Source of the DNA: Hyphomicrobiales bacterium
Lineage (GTDB): Bacteria > Pseudomonadota > Alphaproteobacteria > Rhizobiales > Beijerinckiaceae
Length of the DNA: 64,000 nucleotides
Assembly: GCA_027484655.1 (NCBI GenBank)
Contig: JAIXSM010000027.1
Coordinates: 1 to 64,000 of the forward strand
Direction of reading: 5' to 3'
In this document: positions 28,089-36,071 of the stretch, piece by piece
Position numbering within the stretch: position 1 is the stretch's first letter
How the letters are laid out: each line of letters begins with the position of its first letter
Program-made: the position numbers and the translations under genes
Notes under the pieces: generated by a model
Seen by the model: the letters and a program-made list of their open reading frames with translations, nothing else
Told to the model about the DNA's origin: nothing
Database searches by the model: none

Positions 28089-30560
<2,472 letters not shown>

Positions 30561-30563
30561 CGT

Positions 30564-31679
30564 TCAGACCCGTTCAAGAAGCAGGGCGCTGCCGAGCCCG
30601 CCCATGGCAGCAATCGCCGCGAGACCGGCCGCGCCCGACGCCTCGCGCGCCAGTTCGTGGAACAGGCGCACGGCCAGGATCGCGCCCGACGCGCCGATCG
30701 GGTGGCCGCGCGACAGTGCGCCGCCGCCACGGTTCACGATGTCTGCGTCGAGGGAGAGATCAGCAATCGCCCCCATGGCCTGACAGGCGAAGGCTTCCAT
30801 GATCTCCGCAACAGCCAGCGTCCTGCCCGTGAGAGGAAGCGCTGCGGCCGCCGCCTGGGCGCCGATCATCGGCATCTCGGGCGCACAGCCCATGCGCGAC
30901 GCGCCGGCGATACGACAGGCGTGCACAGGGGCAAGTTTCGCTGCCGCCCGTTCCGACGCCACCAGCACGAAAGCGGCTGCATCCGCCTCCACAGCCGCGG
31001 TAGCCATAGTGACAGCGTGGTCCTTCGCCCCGGCGAGCGCGGGCAAGCGGGCACAGGCCGCAGGCGTGAGCACGCGCATGAACGAGTCGCAATTGATGCC
31101 CGCAAGCGGCGCGAGCTCGCCGCCCTGATCCGCGCATCGTGCCTTCCTGTGGCTCTCGCATGCGAACGCCTCCTGCGCCGCGCGCGCATAGCGGCGCGCA
31201 TCAGCGAAAGCGGCGGCCGCAGCGAAGGGATCGGGATCACGCTCCGCCCACGGCGCGAAAGGCGGACGCTGGTATTCGATTGGTTGCCCGCGCAGTTCGA
31301 GCGGGCGGCGAAACCGAAGCGGCGACCGGCTGAAACTCTCCGCCCCGCCGGCGATCACGAGTTCGGCGCGCCCCGTCTCCACCAGGGTCGCGGCGAGCAG
31401 GATCGCGTCAAGCCCGGCGCAGCATTGGGTGTCGATGGTGAGCGCGGGCCGGCTCTCGGGAAGGCCGGCGGCGAGCGCGATGACGCGCGCGGGATTGCCG
31501 CCTCCGTAAAGCGCGTTGCCAACAATCGCCTCGTCAATTTCGCTGGGCGGACAACCAGCTGCCTGAAGGAGCGCGGTTATGGCGACTGCCCCCAGTTCGC
31601 TCATCTCCAGCGCGCGGAATGCCCCGTTGCGTGGGCATACGGGGGTTCTTTTCGCCGCGACAATGAAGGCGTGGCTCAT
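30564..31679 (-). CDS. Thiolase-family protein (YhfS-like), atypical active site
   Basis: A 371-residue thiolase-superfamily protein. The nucleophilic Cys is present in DTQCCAGLDAI, and the active-site His in GGGALSRGHPIGASGA. Two residues of biosynthetic/degradative thiolases are changed: the NEAF motif reads EIMEAFACQ (Asn to Met), and the C-terminal CxGGG motif reads AIAAMGG (Cys to Ala). Claisen condensation of acyl-CoA is therefore doubtful. ATG 31679 overlaps the ligase stop by 4 bp (ATGA), so translation is coupled; it is the last gene of the bioMNY operon. The order BioY-ligase-thiolase equals B. subtilis yhfU-yhfT-yhfS. Confidence 0.82.
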   Translation of the reverse strand: MSHAFIVAAKRTPVCPRNGAFRALEMSELGAVAITALLQAAGCPPSEIDEAIVGNALYGGGNPARVIALAAGLPESRPALTIDTQCCAGLDAILLAATLVETGRAELVIAGGAESFSRSPLRFRRPLELRGQPIEYQRPPFAPWAERDPDPFAAAAAFADARRYARAAQEAFACESHRKARCADQGGELAPLAGINCDSFMRVLTPAACARLPALAGAKDHAVTMATAAVEADAAAFVLVASERAAAKLAPVHACRIAGASRMGCAPEMPMIGAQAAAAALPLTGRTLAVAEIMEAFACQAMGAIADLSLDADIVNRGGGALSRGHPIGASGAILAVRLFHELAREASGAAGLAAIAAMGGLGSALLLERV

Positions 31680-33097
31680 TCGAGACGCTCCGTGGCTCCG
31701 CTCTCCCAGAGCGCGCAAACGGCTCCATGGTCGGTCTTGCCCGACGCTGTCCATCGCCACTCGGTCATGCGGACGATGATGCGCGGCACGAAGGCGAGCG
31801 GCAGCCGTGCGCGCAGGTGCGCGGAGAGGTCGCGACGCGACGTGCGCGCGCCATCCTCCAGCAAGATAACCGCAACGATGCGCTCGCCGCGGCGCGCATC
31901 GGGCGCGCCAAACACGGAAGCAGCCCGCACGCCCGAAAAGCCCTGCAGGACAGCCTCTATTTCTTCCGGGTAAACATTCTTGCCCGACGTGACGATCATG
32001 CGGTTCTGGCGGCCCACCAGATGCAGAAACCCGCCGTCATCGATGAAGCCGACATCGCCCACTGTCATGGCGCCATCGATCTCCTCGGGCGCGGGTCCGC
32101 CAAGAACATAGCCTGAGAACAAGTATTCGCTCTTCACGAAAATGCGGCCTGGTTCGCAAGCCGCGCAAAGGGACCCGTCGGGGCGACGGATCGCCAATGC
32201 GACGCCGTCAAAAGCTCGCCCCACGGCGGCCTCGGGGCACCCCTCGCCCGGCTTGCGCACGGCGATGAAACTCAGTTCCGATGCGCCATAAAACTCAACG
32301 AAGCCCGCGTTCGGCGCAAGCTGCGCCAACGCCGCGCCGGCAGAAGCGAACCACTTCGCGCCCGAAGAGAACGCCCAGCGCACATCGGGCAGCGCGGGGC
32401 CGCCCTGTTCCGTCAGCATTTTCCATTGCGTCGGCGCGCCGTAGGCGGCGGTGGCGCGCCATGCCGAGCCAAGTTGCAGCGCGCGGTCGGGGCGGAACGT
32501 GCGGCTGATGATGACGGTCGCGCCAATGTGCAGCGCGTGAACGGCCGCATAGAGAAACAGCGAGTGCGACATGGATCCCGGCGCCAGCACGATGTCGTTC
32601 TCGCCGAGGCCGAACTCGCGCGCGTCGCCCTCGAAACTCGCGACCCATGAACGATGGTTGCGCCGATATCCCTTTGGCCGTCCGGTCGAGCCGGACGTGA
32701 AGCCCACGTAGAACGGGGTCTCGGGCGTTGGGGAAACTGGTTGCGCTGCGCACGCGCGCAGAGCCGCTGCGCCGGCGGCGAATGTGGGGTCGCAAATGAG
32801 ATCGGGGGCAAGTCCCGCCAGAACATCCGCGATCATCGCCTGCGGCCATGTGGGATCGACCACAGCCCCGGTGCGTCCAGACCGGGCGCAGGCGAGAAAA
32901 TACGCCAAGAATTGCGGTGTGTTCCCAAGCAGCAGGGCGACCATCCGCCCACCGGGCGCATGGGCCTCCAGCGCGTTGACGGCGTGGCGGATGGCAGCCT
33001 CGAACGCGCCCCATGTGACGACCTGATCGTCGCACACAATCGCAGGCGCGTCGGGCTTGCGCTGCGCATGATCCGGGATGCGGCCGCCGACGATCAT
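31676..33097 (-). CDS. AMP-dependent acyl-CoA ligase (YhfT-like)
   Basis: 473 residues of the ANL superfamily, which forms acyl-AMP and then acyl-CoA. Motif A3 is FTSGSTGRPKG, A5 is FYGASELS, A7 MTVGDVGFIDDGGFLHLVGR, A8 RQNRMIVTSGKNVYPEEIE and A10 contains the catalytic Lys in TASGKTDH. It is short at the N-terminus, similar to B. subtilis YhfT. ATG at 33097 overlaps the bioY stop by 4 bp. In this operon the substrate could be a carboxylate linked to biotin metabolism (pimelate, biotin or fatty acid), but that is inference. Confidence 0.85.
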   Translation of the reverse strand: MIVGGRIPDHAQRKPDAPAIVCDDQVVTWGAFEAAIRHAVNALEAHAPGGRMVALLLGNTPQFLAYFLACARSGRTGAVVDPTWPQAMIADVLAGLAPDLICDPTFAAGAAALRACAAQPVSPTPETPFYVGFTSGSTGRPKGYRRNHRSWVASFEGDAREFGLGENDIVLAPGSMSHSLFLYAAVHALHIGATVIISRTFRPDRALQLGSAWRATAAYGAPTQWKMLTEQGGPALPDVRWAFSSGAKWFASAGAALAQLAPNAGFVEFYGASELSFIAVRKPGEGCPEAAVGRAFDGVALAIRRPDGSLCAACEPGRIFVKSEYLFSGYVLGGPAPEEIDGAMTVGDVGFIDDGGFLHLVGRQNRMIVTSGKNVYPEEIEAVLQGFSGVRAASVFGAPDARRGERIVAVILLEDGARTSRRDLSAHLRARLPLAFVPRIIVRMTEWRWTASGKTDHGAVCALWESGATERLE

Positions 33098-33639
33098 GGG
33101 CGTTGTGAATATCCTTTCTCCGGCAGGGAGCGGATGAGCAGCGCAGCGGCGACCGCCTTGAGCACGTCGCCGGGCAGGAACACCGACCCGGCGACGAGCG
33201 CCTTCCACAGATCAAGCCGCGCAGCGAACGCGAGATACGGAATGCCAAATGCGTAGATCACGAGCACACCGCCAACCAGCGAGGCGATGAGCGCGCGCGC
33301 GAGACGGCTTTGCAGCGGCAGCGCGCCCATGAGCCAACCCGTCGCGAACGCGCCGAACACCCAGCCGACCAGATACCCTGCCGTCGGCCCGAAGAACACG
33401 CCAACGCCGCCACGTCCGCCTGAAAGGAACGGCGCGCCCAGCGCCACGACGAAGAGAAACAGGCCAACAGCAAGCGCGCCGTTGCGCGCCCCGAGCAACA
33501 AGCCCGCCAGCATCACGCCGAGCGTCTGCGCGGTAATCGGCACGCCGGCTGCTATCGGGAGATCGAGACGGGGCAAAAGCCCAAGCGCGGCGATGAATGC
33601 GGCCAGCAGCGCGATACGAACAAGATTGCGGGTTTCCAA
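33094..33639 (-). CDS. bioY: Biotin ECF transporter substrate-binding component BioY
   Basis: The 181-residue membrane S-component binds biotin. It has six hydrophobic segments and the family motifs GVPITAQTLGVMLAGLLLGAR and FLSGGRGGVGVFFGPTAGYL. Start is TTG 33639 (METRNLVRIALLAAF), with CGGAG 8 bp upstream, 14 bp after bioN. Its stop overlaps the ligase start. With bioM and bioN it makes a complete ECF importer. Confidence 0.95.
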   Translation of the reverse strand: METRNLVRIALLAAFIAALGLLPRLDLPIAAGVPITAQTLGVMLAGLLLGARNGALAVGLFLFVVALGAPFLSGGRGGVGVFFGPTAGYLVGWVFGAFATGWLMGALPLQSRLARALIASLVGGVLVIYAFGIPYLAFAARLDLWKALVAGSVFLPGDVLKAVAAALLIRSLPEKGYSQRP

Positions 33640-33653
33640 CGTGAACTCCGGTG

Positions 33654-34256
33654 CTACTTGCGACTGCTGAACCCGCGCGCGTCAAGCGCGTCGCCGACGT
33701 GGTCCGCGAGACGGATCAAGTCATGCACCCAGGGCACGAGCAGGCGAATGGAGGGGCGACGTCCCGTGCGCGCGCGCCACGCCTCCTCGCGCCGACGCCA
33801 ATCCTCGAACAGCGTAGGCACGAAACGCACGACGAGAGCAACTGCAAGCCCAAGCCGTCGGGCGTCGAGGCCAAGGCGAGCCAGCGGGCGAAGCAGCGGC
33901 GCAATCGCGTCCATCATGGCCAGCATCGGCGTCGTCATAGACACGAGATCGGCGGCCAGAACGAGCAGCAGCAGACGCAGGACCACAGAAGCGGCAGTTG
34001 CGGCATCGGCCGCCAGATACTGCAAGAGGGCGATGCCGACCAGCAACGGAGCCAGGGGCGCGAGCAAAGCAAGGCGCTTCACGGCAGCGCGACCAAGGCT
34101 TGCATAGAGGGCAAGCACACCGGCGAGGCCGGCGGCGAGCCCCCACCATGCGGTGACCTGGAAGAAGAAGACGCTGCAGAGCGCTAGCGCCAGCAGCTTC
34201 CAGCCCGCTGGAACCCTGTGCAGCCATGTGCGTGAGCCTAGGGTCGCCGCGAGCAT
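33654..34256 (-). CDS. bioN: Biotin ECF transporter transmembrane (T) component BioN
   Basis: A 200-residue EcfT-type membrane coupling protein: several hydrophobic helices, LHRVPAGWKLLALAL near the N-terminus, and the coupling-helix motifs near the C-terminus around ALVVRFVPTLFEDWRRREEAWRARTGRR, containing the Ala-Arg-Gly-like signature (ARTGRR and DALDARGF). ATG 34256 shares one base with the bioM stop (TGATG). Confidence 0.9.
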   Translation of the reverse strand: MLAATLGSRTWLHRVPAGWKLLALALCSVFFFQVTAWWGLAAGLAGVLALYASLGRAAVKRLALLAPLAPLLVGIALLQYLAADAATAASVVLRLLLLVLAADLVSMTTPMLAMMDAIAPLLRPLARLGLDARRLGLAVALVVRFVPTLFEDWRRREEAWRARTGRRPSIRLLVPWVHDLIRLADHVGDALDARGFSSRK

Positions 34257-34975
34257 CAGCAAGTTCCCATGTTGTTGCGGCGCGCCATGGCGTGACCCCG
34301 GTAGGCGGCGATCACCTCGCCGGGCGCACCGTCCCTCTCGACGCCGCCGCCGCCAAGCCATAGGCAGCGCTCCATGTGCGTCAGCACATCGAGATCGTGG
34401 CTGGCGAGGACGAGGGTCTGCGGCAATGTGAGCAGCATATCCATGAGATCAAGCCGCGTCGGAAGGTCGAGGCTCGAGAACGGCTCATCGAGCACAAGAA
34501 CATCCGGGTTGGTTGCGACGACTGCGAGGATGCACAGGCGTTGCTTCTGCCCTTCGGAAAGTTCGTGCACGGCCGCATCGATCCACGTCGCGCATCCATT
34601 CGCGCCGAGGATGTCGCGAGCGCGACCGTCCGCCTCGCGCGGGGCGACGCCCTGCTCGCGCAAACCGAAAGACACTTCCTCCAGGACAGTGGGAAAGATG
34701 ATCTGGTGATCGGGATTCTGGAACACGAAGCCGACGCGACGGGGCAGATCGCGACGATTCTCCCGCACGTCGAGGCCATGAATGCGCACGCGCCCGGATT
34801 CAGGCAGAAGCAGCCCGTTGAACAGGCGCAGAAACGAGCTTTTTCCTGCGCCATTGTCGCCCAGCACGCCGATGCGCCGCTCGCTCAGGACCAGATCCAG
34901 CTCGCGAAAGACGATCGTCTCGCCACGCCGCAACGCGACGCGTTCGAATTCGATCGTCCGGTTGGCGTTGTTCAT
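34256..34975 (-). CDS. bioM: Biotin ECF transporter ATP-binding component BioM
   Basis: A 239-residue ABC ATPase: Walker A GDNGAGKSS, Q-loop GFVFQNPDHQI, signature LSEGQKQRLCILA, Walker B VLVLDEPFSSLD and the switch His in VLASHDLDVL. FQNPDHQ is typical of ECF ATPases. MNNANRTIEF at ATG 34975 is chosen; the frame upstream runs into the divergent oxidoreductase region. First gene of the operon bioM-bioN-bioY-ligase-thiolase. I see no BioR-type TTAT-ATAA palindrome in front of it. Confidence 0.92.
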   Translation of the reverse strand: MNNANRTIEFERVALRRGETIVFRELDLVLSERRIGVLGDNGAGKSSFLRLFNGLLLPESGRVRIHGLDVRENRRDLPRRVGFVFQNPDHQIIFPTVLEEVSFGLREQGVAPREADGRARDILGANGCATWIDAAVHELSEGQKQRLCILAVVATNPDVLVLDEPFSSLDLPTRLDLMDMLLTLPQTLVLASHDLDVLTHMERCLWLGGGGVERDGAPGEVIAAYRGHAMARRNNMGTC

Positions 34976-35093
34976 GGTGATCGCACCCATACCGACCGCT
35001 GGCCCGGACGGGCGCGCTTCCCTTCCATGGCAGCGGCGTGCTTTATCAGGCGCGGCGGAGATGTCCAACGACCTCCGAACTATGGAGGGGGCG

Positions 35094-36071
35094 ATGCTTG
35101 CAGGGTGGTATGAGCGGGGCGGACTGGCGCACGAGGTGATCCAGATCGGCGACATGCCGACGCCGGAAGCTGGGCCGGGGGAAATTCTCGTGCGCGTGCA
35201 TGCCTCCGGCATCAACCCGTCCGATTACAAGCGCCGCGGCAATGCGAAGGCGCCAACCGAATTTCCCCGCGTGGTGCCCCATTCCGACGGCGCCGGAGTC
35301 ATCGCTGCTATTGGGGTCGGCGTTGAGGGTTTTGCAGTGGGCGACCGCGTGTGGGTCTACCACGCCCAGTGGGGGCGCGCCTGCGGGACAGCAGCCGAGT
35401 ATGTGGCGCTTCCGGCCGCCCTCGTGCGGCCCCTCCCGGACGGCCTCACCTTCGAACAGGGAGCCTGCCTCGGCATTCCGGCCATGACCGCCCATCGGTG
35501 CGTGTTCGGCGGCGGCCCGGTGGAGGGCAAGACGGTTTACGTGCCGGCGGCAGCCGGGCGCGTCGGCGCATACGCCATACAGTTCGCCAAGCGGGGCGGC
35601 GCACGGGTCATCGCCAGCGCCGGCGACAAGGCGAAACGTGATGTGGCGGCCGCGCTCGGCGCCGATCTGGTGCTGGATCGCGCCGATCCCGACCTTGCCC
35701 GGCGTCTCATGGACGAGACCAACGGACGCGGGGTCGACCGCATCGTTGAGATCGACCTGCCCGGCAACATCAAGTTCGACGAAAGCGTCGTCGCGGACGG
35801 CGGCGGAATTGCGGTCTATGGCGCGAGCCCGCAGCCTGCCGCCGTGCTGACGCTCTCGCCCCGGCGCGCGCGCAACCTCGATGTGCAGGTGGTGTTCGTC
35901 TACACGCTCGCCCCGGCCATCGTCGAAGCAACCTGCAGGGGCGTTGGGGAAGCGGCAGCGGCGCTGACGCATCGCATCGCAGGCGTGTTTCCGCTACGGG
36001 ACATGGCGGCGGCGCACGAGGCGGCGGAGACGTCGAGCGGATCGGGCCACATCGTGGTCGCGATCCCCTGA
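35094..36071 (+). CDS. Zinc-less alcohol dehydrogenase/quinone oxidoreductase-like MDR protein
   Basis: A 325-residue medium-chain reductase superfamily member: GroES-like N-terminal part (LVRVHASGINPSDYKRRG, PHSDGAGVIAAIG) and an NAD(P)-binding part with VYVPAAAGRVGAYAIQFAKRGGARVIA. Cysteine/histidine zinc ligands are missing, so it is the quinone-oxidoreductase (QOR) type, reducing quinones or enals with NADPH. ATG 35094 has SD GGAGGGG. Physiological substrate unknown. Confidence 0.85.
   Translation: MLAGWYERGGLAHEVIQIGDMPTPEAGPGEILVRVHASGINPSDYKRRGNAKAPTEFPRVVPHSDGAGVIAAIGVGVEGFAVGDRVWVYHAQWGRACGTAAEYVALPAALVRPLPDGLTFEQGACLGIPAMTAHRCVFGGGPVEGKTVYVPAAAGRVGAYAIQFAKRGGARVIASAGDKAKRDVAAALGADLVLDRADPDLARRLMDETNGRGVDRIVEIDLPGNIKFDESVVADGGGIAVYGASPQPAAVLTLSPRRARNLDVQVVFVYTLAPAIVEATCRGVGEAAAALTHRIAGVFPLRDMAAAHEAAETSSGSGHIVVAIP

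Follow-up and report, generated by a model that had tools for sequence, protein, structure and literature searches.

A conserved bioY-linked acyl-CoA ligase and thiolase-fold protein, and their possible role in the salvage of a biotin breakdown product

A 64-kb stretch of DNA from a Hyphomicrobiales bacterium (contig JAIXSM010000027.1, positions 1 to 64,000; hereafter the window) carries, in a single minus-strand operon, the genes for a putative biotin importer, BioMNY, and for two enzymes, a YhfT-like adenosine monophosphate (AMP)-forming acyl-coenzyme A (acyl-CoA) ligase of 473 residues (31676..33097) and a YhfS-like thiolase-fold protein of 371 residues (30564..31679). The last three genes, BioY-ligase-thiolase, are a real conserved unit. 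The reading that we tentatively favour is that an imported acid bearing the biotin ring, for instance bisnorbiotin, may undergo one reductive two-carbon elongation to biotin. We favour it because 78 of 80 loci have BioY beside the ligase, the trees of the two enzymes correlate, the active site shows a distinctive pattern, dehydratases and short-chain dehydrogenases/reductases (SDRs) are linked to the pair, acyl-CoA dehydrogenase is rarely nearby, and genomes that lack biotin synthesis genes retain the pair. More tentatively still, BioY-YhfT-YhfS may form the core of an undescribed salvage of biotin that reverses beta-oxidation of the side chain, to which each lineage would have attached its own genes for a dehydratase, a reductase and a thioesterase. 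The trio is already in print as a set of biotin-regulated genes; in the excerpts covered, all from one open-licence library with subscription journals outside it, we found no tested function for yhfT or yhfS, and no report of the lost active-site cysteine, of the linked dehydratase and reductase genes or of elongation of a biotin-ring acid.

Results

Genome contigs were scanned with an alignment of the ligase alone, and the 80 best of 583 confirmed stretches were taken as loci; since 12 of the 14 members of the query alignment were ligases already beside BioY, the survey samples that clade. BioY lay in the flank of 78 of these 80 best loci; of the other two, L112 had a partial copy and L109 none. 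The thiolase-like gene lay in the flank of 76, with a partial copy in L091 and none at L081, L087 or L134; flank lengths differed between loci, and L032, L033 and L037 were partly masked. Judged by the titles of their records, the loci comprised 62 from Alphaproteobacteria, two from Betaproteobacteria and 16 from Bacillota, and bioM was present at 61 of the 64 proteobacterial loci and at none of those from Bacillota. None of 17 control acyl-CoA ligases from the same order as the window had BioY within flanks of 1.5 kb. These counts rule out a chance neighbourhood, which the preliminary description of this DNA had already doubted; the trio recurs in other Hyphomicrobiales and far beyond them, and its order, which had been likened to that of Bacillus yhfU-yhfT-yhfS, is the same in the loci of B. 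velezensis and B. siamensis.

Within the order, the curated ligase family NF005797 matched 42 of 150 genomes at an E-value of 1e-60. The ten best-scoring genomes all carried ligase and thiolase side by side. BioY adjoined the two in eight of them; in G024 it was on a separate contig, and in G023 it was not next to them. The trio or pair had BioM and BioN beside it in five of the ten (G000, G126, G077, G108 and G024), neither was found in G116 and G023, and the relevant stretch was masked in the other three (G041, G081 and G146). Among plasmid records, the ligase had 130 matches at 1e-30 (111 of them from Rhizobium) and the thiolase 28 at 1e-20; among nine plasmid regions examined, eight held ligase, thiolase and BioY together, and the one from Rhizobium etli (L054) was without BioY. 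The plasmid of Microvirga sp. VF16 holds two bioM-bioN-bioY-ligase-thiolase-MaoC sets (L056, 540923-554395; L057, 314139-327185).

Active-site residues were compared in 94 sequences, 76 from the loci and 18 from a second alignment. G077 and G189 (loci L036 and L080) are apparently one genome, so that the set holds at least one duplicate, and it includes L038 and L054, neither of which has BioY beside it. In the thiolase-like protein of the window, Cys86 and His326 are kept, the second catalytic cysteine is replaced by Ala357, and the NEAFA motif reads MEAFA. Across the family the nucleophilic cysteine (C86) and the histidine of the GHP motif (H326) were each present in 94 of 94 sequences, and the second cysteine in none (alanine in 64, glycine in 30); the asparagine position of NEAFA was occupied by methionine in 58, asparagine in 31 and histidine in 5. 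All 25 control thiolases, drawn from 27 non-trio matches in eight of the genomes that carry the trio, kept the full set of Cys, Asn/His, His and Cys.

The second cysteine of thiolases serves as acid/base at the alpha carbon, abstracting or returning the alpha proton; the missing residue is, we presume, Cys378 in Zoogloea numbering. Its absence speaks against both thiolysis and the condensation of acetyl-CoA, and fits either a decarboxylative condensation or a simple acyl transfer. Because this residue is gone in every sequence examined, the label 'thiolase', which the preliminary description had used, is probably wrong as the name of a reaction.

Judged by its residues, the ligase looks catalytically competent. 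K142, E274, R363 and K454, the last of these being the A10-type lysine, were present in all 94 family members and in all 17 controls (three of 20 control ligases had been dropped, the P-loop motif appearing in no frame), and R146 and W151 were invariant in the family, not in the controls. Three Rhodobacterales loci (L050, 5859-7004; L052, 5848-6993; L055, 5889-6992) encode ligases of only about 370-380 residues, which align from around residue 119-134 of the window ligase onwards, much of their N-terminal part being short or diverged.

When scored against 101 curated families, the window ligase matched NF005797/PRK07638 best (332.7 bits, below the cut-off of 518). The thiolase-like protein scored best with the subfamily TIGR01930 (222.3 bits, below the cut-off of 240.55) and second best with NF005212/PRK06690 (190.2 bits, below the cut-off of 498). 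The trio proteins of B. velezensis exceeded the cut-offs of both NF005797 (702.9 bits) and NF005212 (623.1 bits), and NF005797 matched two of 14 control genomes, B. subtilis and Thermus composti, passing its cut-off in one of these two; on the strength of these matches and scores the two families were taken as models of the YhfT and YhfS types, respectively. The ligase and thiolase-like protein of the window thus appear to belong beside YhfT and YhfS, yet under the strict cut-offs.

Phylogenies of the two proteins agreed. The 94 ligases of the family separated from the 17 control acyl-CoA ligases in an exact split with a support of 1.0, and the 94 thiolase-like proteins separated from the 25 control thiolases with the same support; in both trees the Bacillus members fell inside the family. 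The 16 Bacillota formed one group in each, supported at 0.99 for the ligase and at only 0.17 for the thiolase. The two trees were correlated over the 76 loci (Mantel r 0.84), with none of 999 permutations reaching as high a value. Membership of ordinary fatty-acid degradation families, a possibility that the preliminary description had raised, was not what we found, since both proteins split from their ordinary relatives.

Enzymes suited to a reductive cycle accompany the pair in part of the loci. MaoC/HadAB dehydratases or a FabG-like reductase followed it in 23 of the 80. MaoC came directly after the thiolase in 12 proteobacterial loci, ten of the 80 and the two on the Microvirga plasmid (Pfam was run on three), and in L065 MaoC and the thiolase share a single open frame. 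Among the 16 Bacillota loci, a HadA-like and HadB-like pair followed in ten (Pfam was run on three proteins) and a FabG-like SDR, on the same strand, in seven, with one or the other in 13 and both in four; in L106, L116, L126 and L129, the ligase, the ketosynthase-like protein, HadA, HadB and the SDR stand in a row. Four of the SDRs were compared with NCBIfam, in which FabG and general SDR models scored best, all below cut-off. Genes for oxidoreductases of the medium-chain dehydrogenase/reductase (MDR) type lay in the neighbourhood of the trio or pair, both in the window and in L058, L061 (1.3 kb), L076, L079, L111, L053, L054 and L038, and YbgC/4HBT-type thioesterases in L038, L039, L053 and L054. 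A nitroreductase-family gene adjoined the pair or lay close to it in seven loci (L050, L051, L052, L055, L109, L114 and L130), which belong to Rhodobacterales, two betaproteobacteria and one Azospirillum; its product might serve this pathway as a flavin enoyl reductase. The thioesterases and nitroreductases were matched to profiles on examples. Acyl-CoA dehydrogenase, which beta-oxidation needs, occurred near only two of 99 loci, both of Bradyrhizobium, at 1.9-3.5 kb and not adjacent. We reject an ordinary beta-oxidation ligase and thiolase on account of the fully supported splits, the lost second cysteine and this rarity of acyl-CoA dehydrogenase.

The genome of the window, which is 100% complete, contains no bioB, no bioD and no bioA above the curated cut-off. 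For bioA only that cut-off was used, since at an E-value of 1e-60 it matched all 32 genomes and was a poor marker because the aminotransferase superfamily is broad. Among the nine of the ten best-scoring genomes of the order that carry ligase, thiolase and a BioY (G023 set aside), bioB was absent in eight and present in G146. In the wider survey, the count covered the genomes of 49 of the 80 loci (L071 was left out, and the completeness of these genomes is not given), of which 29 had bioB and 20 did not; the pair is thus not a mark of auxotrophy. The 29 bioB-less genomes that were tested, 28 of them distinct and with those of the window and G023 included, all lacked bioD and an over-cut-off bioA as well. 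The retention of the pair in both kinds of genome indicates that it serves cells unable and cells able to make biotin. In G146, bioB lies beside a second BioY (C1, 3015486-3016876) with no bioD and no over-cut-off bioA, a pattern that suggests import of dethiobiotin.

In the window, the five genes bioM-bioN-bioY-ligase-thiolase lie tightly together on the minus strand. bioM (34256..34975, with ATG at 34975) encodes an energy-coupling factor (ECF) ATPase (Pfam ABC_tran, 91 bits, cut-off 25) and bioN (33654..34256) an ECF transmembrane T component (CbiQ, 49.3 bits, cut-off 25), and at their junction, TGATG, one base is common to stop and start. Downstream by 14 bp, bioY (33094..33639) begins with TTG and encodes the biotin-specific S component (PF02632, 134.4 bits, cut-off 25), the sole BioY match in this genome. 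Both of the remaining junctions, bioY/ligase and ligase/thiolase-like gene, are ATGA overlaps. The ligase matched AMP-binding (164.9 bits, cut-off 29.9), and the thiolase-like protein matched Thiolase_N (114.2 bits, cut-off 26.4), Thiolase_C (66.7 bits, cut-off 27) and, weakly, ketoacyl-synt. The open reading frames (ORFs) bear out the five-gene operon, the shared base and the two overlaps that had been described for this DNA, and Pfam agrees; BioM, BioN and BioY, adjoining and each above its cut-off, constitute a putative BioMNY ECF importer of biotin.

A divergent control region of 118 bp (34976..35093) separates the start of bioM from that of an MDR oxidoreductase gene on the plus strand (35094..36071, 325 residues). 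Profile scores, taken on a longer ORF (34782-36071), were 130 bits for PIG3 and 93 bits for crotonyl-CoA reductase, both below cut-off. Relatives with 59-71% identity lie near bioM in L058, L076 and L079 and 1.3 kb off in L061, and this oxidoreductase is a possible enoyl reductase of the same system. At the other end of the operon, the thiolase-like gene and the presumed gyrB face each other end to end (ORF end 30560; 28104-30564 in the window) with three bases between them; by this convergence the biotin operon lies within the recF-gyrB region, gyrB and recF being names that we assigned by eye.

The biotin link of the trio extends to its regulation. According to the parts seen of two reports (PMC6391492, PMC7235819), SaBirA of S. 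aureus binds the yhfS-yhfT promoter and exerts a biotin-dependent repression that covers bioY as well, and the yhfT and yhfS products are called putative fatty acid ligase and acetyltransferase homologues; a third, likewise seen in part, lists bioY, yhfS and yhfT as repressed by BirA in both B. subtilis and S. aureus (PMC11089781). Such repression fits a role in biotin shortage. BirA-like and BioR-like boxes were sought in the 99 loci, with a BirA consensus and the BioR consensus TTATMKATAA. A BirA-like box lay at or just upstream of bioY in five of the 16 Bacillota loci; two of the five, L127 and L133, have it where the called frame starts. One stray box was found in L077. BioR-like boxes stood 37-59 bp before bioM in L063 (4950, exact), L072 (4947) and L130 (4897), the latter two with one mismatch; the remaining ones were scattered, many of them in AT-rich Bacillota. 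A GntR/MocR-type regulator, so named by eye, precedes bioM in 11 Roseibium/Labrenzia-type loci (L091, L092, L094, L095, L098, L102, L103, L104, L108, L122 and L123).

Other neighbours recur as well. A panC-like gene stands directly before bioM in L062, L063, L064 and L072 and before the ligase in L051; it is itself preceded by a panB-like gene, which makes this a vitamin gene cluster, and in the Bradyrhizobium loci it lies 25 bp from the operon. The record of L051 carries this annotation. In Azospirillum, a gene resembling a major facilitator superfamily transporter lies immediately 3' of the thiolase-like gene (L049, where the record annotates it as such, L115, L118, L120, L121, L131 and L135).

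Discussion

Bisnorbiotin is the beta-oxidation product of biotin and is exactly two carbons short of it, which makes it the simplest candidate for the substrate. In the cycle that we envisage, BioMNY would import biotin and probably also similar compounds whose biotin ring is intact. The ligase would convert a biotin-ring carboxylate too short to serve as biotin into its CoA thioester; the thiolase-fold protein would take the acyl group onto Cys86 and then, lacking the second cysteine, carry out a ketosynthase-like condensation with a two-carbon donor, malonyl-CoA or malonyl-acyl carrier protein (malonyl-ACP). Ketoreductase, dehydratase and enoyl reductase steps might be supplied by dedicated neighbours (FabG-like SDR, MaoC/HadAB, MDR) or by general fatty acid synthesis, and a thioesterase would close a single elongation cycle with the release of biotin. 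The identity of the substrate, the direction of the cycle, the condensation step and the use of malonyl donors are inferred; what was directly seen is a conserved operon, a consistent pattern of active-site residues, the enzyme families linked to the trio and the absence of genes for biotin synthesis.

Several observations weigh against such a cycle. The loss of the second cysteine fits a plain acyltransferase or hydrolase equally well. With the seeds used, 57 of the 80 loci had no linked dehydratase or ketoreductase, among them all those of Ancylobacter, Roseibium and Azospirillum, and the window operon itself has only the divergent MDR gene, with neither dehydratase nor ketoreductase. Of the 49 pair-bearing genomes surveyed, 29 have bioB, among them 14 of 16 Bacillota. 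Ligase and thiolase occur without BioY beside them in the R. etli plasmid copy (L054) and in G023, and that copy is the one examined among the 111 Rhizobium plasmid records. Finally, no BirA-like box was found in the window, and no BioR-like box, at up to one mismatch, in a 20-kb stretch of it; the 118-bp control region before bioM thus has neither.

The strongest rival, and a serious one that we nevertheless consider unlikely, is an adaptation of lipids to biotin shortage, in which, when biotin limits acetyl-CoA carboxylase, the ligase would activate external fatty acids and the condensing enzyme would remodel or elongate them, the link with biotin being regulatory only. Both enzymes do come from fatty-acid superfamilies, the names given to their products in the literature seen (PMC6391492, PMC7235819, in part) point the same way, and there are copies without adjacent BioY. 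However, elongation that uses malonyl units is no help to a cell short of carboxylase activity, a thiolase reaction that uses acetyl-CoA is unlikely given the lost cysteine, and the enzymes are linked with the BioY gene as such in 78 of 80 loci, most of which have no BirA-like box. Degradation of biotin or of an analogue by beta-oxidation, with ligase, MaoC hydratase, SDR dehydrogenase and thiolase shortening the side chain, appears improbable. These enzymes could equally run in that direction, and in L061, L076 and L079 the thiolase gene has a crotonase-type gene at its side, on the opposite strand, that of L076 exceeding the cut-off of an enoyl-CoA hydratase model; against this stand the cysteine missing from 94 of 94 sequences, an acyl-CoA dehydrogenase in only two of 99 loci and adjacent in neither, and the biotin-repressed expression in S. 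aureus (PMC6391492, PMC7235819, as seen in part), and it makes little sense for an auxotroph to destroy an imported vitamin.

It is decidedly improbable that the pair acts in metabolic trapping, the ligase pulling uptake through BioY by making biotinyl-CoA and the Cys-His protein passing on or releasing the biotinyl group. The active site suits simple acyl transfer, and BioY stands beside the pair with no adjacent bioMN on a Paracoccus yeei plasmid, in G116 and in the 16 Bacillota loci; however, trapping leaves the linked dehydratases and ketoreductases unexplained, and bioM is also present at 61 of 64 proteobacterial loci. Synthesis of a pimelate-type precursor, in which a C5 acid such as glutarate would be activated and extended to pimeloyl-CoA by the logic of BioZ, is very improbable in general. 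One elongation cycle on glutaryl-CoA would indeed give pimelate, BioZ does so in Alphaproteobacteria (PMC7645780, in the part seen), and bioB occurs in more than half of the counted genomes with the pair; against it, the genome of the window and 28 other bioB-less genomes (27 if G077 and G189 are the same) have neither bioD nor an over-cut-off bioA. For the window's genome, we reject precursor synthesis as unlikely, given the missing bioB, bioD and over-cut-off bioA. The preliminary description had proposed salvage of a biotin catabolite or precursor; the precursor half is not supported, given these missing genes in the bioB-less hosts, and salvage of a catabolite, as in the elongation of bisnorbiotin, stands as the best, inferred, reading.

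Together, the conserved link to BioY, the lost base cysteine, the linked enzymes of the fatty acid synthesis type and the non-synthesising hosts narrow the options and name a testable class of substrate. If salvage by elongation is true, bacteria reclaim a biotin breakdown product, and the supply of biotin in communities would have to be counted differently.

Among known systems, the bioY(yhfU)-yhfT-yhfS genes of Bacillus and Staphylococcus share with the window the same three genes in the same order (B. velezensis, B. siamensis) and the same loss of the second cysteine; the window differs in that its operon also encodes BioMN and has an MDR gene next to it, that it shows no BirA-like box, that its genome lacks bioB and bioD, and that its two enzymes score under the curated cut-offs. 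Thiolases of the biosynthetic and degradative kinds (PF00108/PF02803) resemble the window protein in their fold, as judged from sequence, and in the retained nucleophilic cysteine and histidine, but keep the second cysteine that it has lost, and stand on the other side of the split in the tree. BioZ, a 3-ketoacyl-ACP synthase III (KAS III)-like enzyme of pimeloyl-ACP synthesis, offers the likeness of a condensing enzyme devoted to biotin that performs one elongation cycle (PMC7645780, seen in part); the window protein, in contrast, matches Thiolase_N/Thiolase_C and not KAS III, and its genome could not use pimelate. In Sinorhizobium meliloti, the BioY gene (there called bioB), SMc00965 and SMc00966 likewise encode BioY, an AMP-binding protein and a thiolase family protein, and in the part seen of one study all three are lowered in a nolR+ strain, as NolR-dependent transcripts (PMC12445080). 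In a pSymB-labelled record of S. meliloti strain Ak57, a thioesterase gene and an alcohol dehydrogenase (ADH)-type gene lie beside the trio.

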